Below are positions 52,748 to 52,773 of a stretch of 64,000 nucleotides of DNA, piece by piece. The translations under genes and the position numbers were made by a program. How positions within the stretch are numbered: position 1 is the stretch's first letter; each line of letters opens with the position of its first letter. The stretch is taken from positions 161,528 to 225,527 of the IMG/VR virus record IMGVR_UViG_3300028569_002417. One strand, 5' to 3'. The notes under the pieces are model-generated. The model was not told the origin of the DNA, did not search any database, and saw nothing but the letters and a program-made list of their open reading frames with translations. Source of the stretch: a virus.

Positions 52748-52773
52748 CTGAGAAATCCGTTTCATGTTGACGG
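52748..52773 (+). repeat. solitary CRISPR-repeat-like hairpin in a 5' leader
   Basis: CTGAGAAATCCGT followed by TTCATGTTGACGG: 26 nt matching the 3' two thirds of the array repeat with 4 changes, all in or next to the loop. The stem CCGTT/GACGG is kept by one G-U pair. An ATG lies in the loop (52764), but the better start of the next gene is GTG 52800, so the hairpin is in its 5' leader. Confidence 0.85.

Follow-up and report, generated by a model that had tools for sequence, protein, structure and literature searches.

A solitary CRISPR handle in the leader of a phage gene

Why should a hairpin resembling part of a CRISPR repeat stand alone, just upstream of the ribosome-binding site of a phage gene? 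The site lies in a 64,000-nucleotide stretch of phage DNA (the window), which spans positions 161528-225527 of a phage contig 225,527 bases long. Contigs G000, G001 and G002 were treated as one phage, phage A, of about 0.28 Mb in total. The features at the site, and at a second one nearby, are as follows.

51877..51903, + strand: element 1, a diverged solitary handle (28 bits) with a 4-nt insertion, AAAG
51921..52199, + strand: gene downstream of element 1, 92 aa
52716..52744, + strand: promoter-like TTTACA-17-TACACT, expected start point at the first A of element 2
52751..52773, + strand: element 2, a solitary hairpin like a Cas12i crRNA handle, covariance-model score 31 bits
52788..52802, + strand: GGAGG Shine-Dalgarno and GTG start (52800), kept in the related phages B (as ATG) and D (as GTG)
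52800..53210, + strand: gene downstream of element 2, 136 aa from GTG 52800

A first-pass annotation had placed a repeat-like hairpin here, in the leader of the gene at 52800 and 14 nt before GGAGG, and both points hold. Element 2 (AGAAATCCGTTTCATGTTGACGG) matches the 3' 23 nt of the phage A array repeat, CCCACAATACCTGAGAAATCCGTCCTACGTTGACGG. It is predicted to fold into a 6-nt tail (AGAAAT), a 5-bp stem (CCGTT/GACGG) and a 7-nt loop (TCATGTT), and it differs from the repeat in the loop and at one stem C>T that still pairs as U-G. This is the layout of a Cas12i handle, a 5' AGAAAU tail followed by a CCGUC-N7-GACGG hairpin, here with the one U-G pair. GGAGG follows the element after 14 nt, and GTG 52800 after 26 nt. 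Its score corresponds to E ~6e-4 in 350 kb, under a covariance model built from 13 elements that include element 2 itself. The hairpin is genuine and exceeds chance expectation. As a single copy, it has no repeat-spacer series, and the nearest array is 18 kb away. An intrinsic terminator was considered and rejected, since no T-run follows the hairpin and a terminator scan finds none at the element.

The pairing of two such elements within a short distance, also proposed earlier, stands in part. Outside the array, exact AGAAATCCGT occurs in the window only at 51877 and 52751, each time with the hairpin 3' arm after it. Element 1, which overlaps the stop codon of a peptide deformylase gene and lies 17 nt before ATG 51921, carries the AAAG insertion, however, and its predicted fold favours a different hairpin, UUCCGUU-AAAG-GACGGA.

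The known cognate effector is carried by the phage

Phage-borne type V-I systems are already known (PMC7162821), and the window holds one, with its array.

30261..33503, + strand: cas12i, a phage-borne type V-I effector; best PDB match Cas12i2, E=1e-101
30329..30338, + strand: AGAAATCCGC in cas12i's own leader, within a 9-bp hairpin directly before ATG 30363
33629..34510, + strand: CRISPR array, 13 repeats of 36 nt and 12 spacers

The true start of cas12i is probably ATG 30363. The phage A protein (P0001) retains K54, H526 and H527, the counterparts of the Cas12i2 pre-crRNA RNase residues K18, H485 and H486. An autoregulatory role for the AGAAATCCGC match is possible but weak, as about 0.5 such 9-mers per window are expected by chance from simple arithmetic. 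Further along the window are an approximately 12-nt tandem repeat within open reading frames on both strands (37917-38312) and a phage-encoded tmRNA (38973-39327; Rfam RF00023, 100 bits).

Phage B, assembled by joining three overlapping contigs (overlaps 99.5% and 99.9% identical), carries an array that shares this repeat but whose spacers, about 30, are other than those of phage A (L024:4850-6900). With a common repeat and different spacers (12 versus about 30), the array evidently changes fast. Neither set of spacers matches the relatives compared. A phage 91% identical to A over 4.3 kb has the locus without cas12i and array (L121:6215-6832), so the system is present or absent between close relatives. 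At the corresponding locus, adjoining dnaE, phage D encodes an intact Cas12i of 38% identity (L143:6299-9334); a search of 57 kb of this phage revealed no recognisable array. The leader of the phage D cas12i contains a hairpin of its own (AAAATCCTGTA...TACAGG).

Three IMG/VR scans with Cas12i queries, two of them alignment scans based on few peptide patterns, returned phages A and D only. No Cas12i was found among annotated phages and plasmids, or in the sequenced parts of phage C and of a further phage, G005. Among 84,980 prokaryote species genomes we found no array with this repeat, just four single matches. The known cognate effector is therefore the phage-borne one, and a host Cas12i as the target of the handles was rejected on the same ground.

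Solitary elements keep the mature handle and lose the rest of the repeat

Pattern and covariance-model searches recovered strong handles (25 bits or more) outside the array from four phages: at least 11 from phage A and 4 from B, with a single one from C and two from G005. The other relatives searched, amounting to more than 2 Mb, yielded no element that scored higher than 20 bits. With 16-17 bases fixed, scans of the whole of IMG/VR brought up only 14-16 stretches, mostly from this phage group.

Of the 36-nt repeat, these elements retain only the mature 23-nt handle. The 13 nt that Cas12i discards match at about the null rate, with one exception, an almost full repeat in phage B (L119:7661) that matches 11 of the 13 upstream nt. 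Reading that copy as a precise insertion was dropped because the downstream gene there differs from the one in the window. Solitary copies of the upstream half alone are not above background. Both the retention of the mature handle alone and the background level of upstream-half copies speak against a plain array remnant, which is rejected.

The loop of the handle varies, but there is almost no variation in AAAT, in the stem or in the UU that precedes the 3' arm. AGA is retained in 14 of 18 elements and missing from the other four; the bulge UU is kept in nearly all. A sixth stem pair, which we placed at loop positions 1 and 5 on our own reading of the Cas12i2 structure description, is retained in 13 of the 17 aligned elements, as C-G, U-G, A-U or U-A. 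In element 2 it is U-G, and the UU is present as in the Cas12i2 crystal structure. The covariation score of the whole structure was reached in 3 of 500 shuffles. As the aligned rows are related, covariation of the sixth pair and of the structure is suggestive, not proof. Because the searches demanded the handle, its own conservation is in part an effect of ascertainment; the missing upstream half, the pair in the loop and the placement in leaders carry no such bias.

In Cas12i2, the crRNA stem has 6 bp and the loop 3 nt, with a bulge of 2 nt flipped out, and processing requires A-23, G-22 and A-21 directly 3' of the cut, upstream sequence being inessential (PMC7567891). The parts that the elements keep, as the loop changes, are thus those that Cas12i2 is known to contact or need.

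Handles sit before the Shine-Dalgarno of many genes and turn over quickly

Thirteen of the 18 elements lie in sense 5' leaders, typically 12-26 nt, and usually about 15 nt, before the start codon. About 3.5% would be expected there, a rough genome-wide estimate, and a crude binomial test gives P ~1e-15, with one orthologous pair (A139553/B35988) counted as two of the 18. The first-pass annotation had held that many more such hairpins, scattered at random in coding sequence, would speak against a regulatory role. Copies are indeed abundant, yet they are not randomly placed in coding sequence, and the proposal comes through this check. The five non-leader elements are A150200 within a coding gene, A145199 antisense at a gene 3' end with its own promoter, A154450 within an intergenic stretch, and both G005 elements at the 3' ends of genes. 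The genes downstream of handles have no obvious common function.

In four of the 18 elements, element 2 among them, the start point of a promoter coincides with the handle itself (P ~0.001 against other leaders). The promoter-like sequence before element 2 is also found in the handle-free homologous leader of phage B. A 44-nt segment comprising a promoter and the start of a handle occurs twice in phage A with 98% identity (L192:14835-14897 and L193:151-218), and the copy at L192:14870 has drifted to another, longer hairpin of about 9 pairs. A tandem pair, A49401/A49369, has starts 32 nt apart and has diverged.

Around the two elements the window is collinear with phages B, C and D, whose homologous leaders lack both. 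The elements C9000, B50805 and A150200 each occur in one phage only, and phage D has no such elements. A150200 (L193:5197-5219, the same as G001:150197-150219) is a 24-nt in-frame insertion, exactly 8 codons relative to B and C, in a conserved gene of 206 aa. The only site conserved between phages is A139553/B35988, common to A and B; in that leader phage C has the hairpin without the 5' tail. At least five further phage C leaders (L194-L197) have hairpins like CCGTC-N7-GACGG without the full AGAAAT tail, and the strongest phage C copy (8997) precedes the gene for translation initiation factor IF-3. Comparison of these genomes indicates that handle sites turn over quickly between relatives. 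Selection for the RNA shape at this particular site is thus less well supported than first suggested: the shape is preserved across the element family, and not at position 52751, which is empty in the B, C and D leaders.

A possible action of Cas12i on phage leaders

The best reading, with a rough probability of 0.45, is that the handles are leader-borne binding sites which would link Cas12i occupancy to phage gene expression. With handles near many ordinary genes, Cas12i may also bind and control the phage's own mRNAs. This reading draws on the sequence and predicted structure of the handles, their recurrence, their sense-leader placement, the link to same-repeat arrays in A and B, and their fast turnover. 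Every step past the handle in the leader is one that we infer. Cas12i would bind the handle inside the mRNA leader. Where the handle is internal to a longer transcript, it would also cut directly 5' of AGAAAU, as in pre-crRNA. The following 20-30 nt, with the Shine-Dalgarno and start codon, would then occupy the guide channel, out of reach of the ribosome. Depending on how much Cas12i is free of array crRNA, handle-bearing genes might be repressed, or their mRNAs given new 5' ends.

The AGA required in Cas12i2 processing, and the UU and sixth pair of its crRNA, are mostly kept, and with the retained RNase residues of P0001 they argue, by analogy, for this reading. Against it, element 1 and L192:14870 have drifted to other hairpins and four elements lack the AGA required for processing. 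No site besides A139553/B35988 is conserved between phages, the G005 pair lies at gene 3' ends, no Cas12i was found in the sequenced parts of C and G005, and the downstream genes share no evident function. The phage C leader hairpins without tail and UU, one of them in the A139553/B35988 leader, suggest a role for the hairpin that is independent of Cas12i.

That role is the basis of the main rival, which we consider unlikely though it has to be reckoned with. Repeat-derived stem-loops would be kept in leaders as mRNA 5'-end hairpins with no need of Cas12i, as dispersed copies, some with a promoter, that slow decay or hold the ribosome-binding site open, much like T4-type cassettes. The duplicated promoter-handle segment, the four promoters that start at the handle, and the persistence of a hairpin in phage C and element 1 after loss of the Cas12i-specific features all fit. 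This view leaves unexplained why the AGAAAT tail hardly varies in A and B and why these phages keep the UU bulge and the sixth pair; nor does it account for the link to phages with an array of the same repeat. Neutral dispersal, in which repeat-like units are copied about without function and survive mostly between genes, would explain the fast turnover, the in-frame insertion in a coding gene and the almost full repeat in phage B. We think it distinctly improbable given the strong sense-strand bias, the fixed place just before the Shine-Dalgarno, the loss of the discarded repeat half alone and a structure kept despite loop change.

The handle RNAs might instead act as an RNA anti-CRISPR or sponge that ties up Cas12i, whether the phage's own or that of rivals in the same group, and limits its activity. 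Solitary repeat units in phages are known as RNA anti-CRISPRs, often just downstream of a promoter (PMC10651486), and an array polymorphic between A and B makes Cas12i warfare plausible. Among these phages a sponge is possible chiefly in C and G005, which have handles and no Cas12i found in their sequenced parts; as an account of the whole set we hold it to be improbable. A sponge would also inhibit phage A's own Cas12i (in B, the array), the handles form part of coding mRNAs and are not stand-alone small RNAs, no host array with this repeat was found, and the A and B spacers match no relatives compared.

A further proposal was that handle binding by Cas12i chooses between two starts, ATG 52764 and GTG 52800. 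ATG 52764 does lie inside the loop and in frame with the gene. It has no Shine-Dalgarno and is just 13 nt from the predicted 5' end, and phages B and D have no in-frame upstream start to match it. Phage D carries the same GGAGGATT(T/C)GGCGTG, likewise with GTG, and the corresponding codon in phage B is ATG. From these leaders, the start codon is read as GTG 52800, and we reject the two-start model, a switch of this kind being very improbable.

Relation to known systems and implications

The handles resemble solitary repeat units, or Racrs (PMC10651486), which are single repeat copies in phage genomes, often after a promoter, with Cas binding expected. They differ in having many copies per genome, mostly in the leaders of coding mRNAs, and in phages that own the cognate array (and, in A, cas12i). 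For a full match outside arrays the Racr finder asks for at least 90% of the repeat; element 2 covers 23 of 36 nt, as do the other handles apart from L119:7661, and the finder would probably miss such copies. In CreR/CreA (reviewed in PMC12737573), too, a repeat-like handle outside the array recruits the Cas effector to control genes, and crRNA abundance can be sensed by competition. CreR and CreA are RNAs in their own right that bring the effector to a promoter. In the phage the handle belongs to the very mRNA that would be regulated, and control would act in cis, at the RNA level, with no need for a target match. The sequences after the handles are the genes' own leaders.

The promoter early stem-loops (PeSLs) of T4-type phages (cited in PMC4503421) are short dispersed cassettes of promoter and stem-loop between phage genes. 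In element 2 and three others of the 18 a promoter directly adjoins the handle; the remaining copies have no directly preceding promoter, and here the stem-loop is a Cas12i crRNA handle. The handles also have the layout of the Cas12i2 crRNA repeat (6ltp; PMC7567891), with its 5' AGAAAU tail, CCGUC/GACGG stem, sixth pair, two flipped-out nucleotides and short loop, except that the handle is followed by a gene's ribosome-binding site in place of a spacer. In the literature searched, we found no account of phages that encode the cognate effector and also bear its handles in their mRNA leaders.

More tentatively, the handles could constitute a post-transcriptional regulon of the phage Cas12i: about a dozen 5' leaders would be cut or masked, coupling crRNA-free Cas12i to expression, and the set would be rewired by gain and loss of 24-nt handles. 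If Cas12i does act in this way, a CRISPR effector would serve as an mRNA-binding regulator through cis leader handles, a use of Cas12 that we did not find in the literature searched, and the handle would be a compact natural part for Cas12i-controlled expression. It would also help to explain why some huge phages retain Cas12i. Even without a role for Cas12i, the data suggest that CRISPR repeats are turning into dispersed leader elements in these phages.
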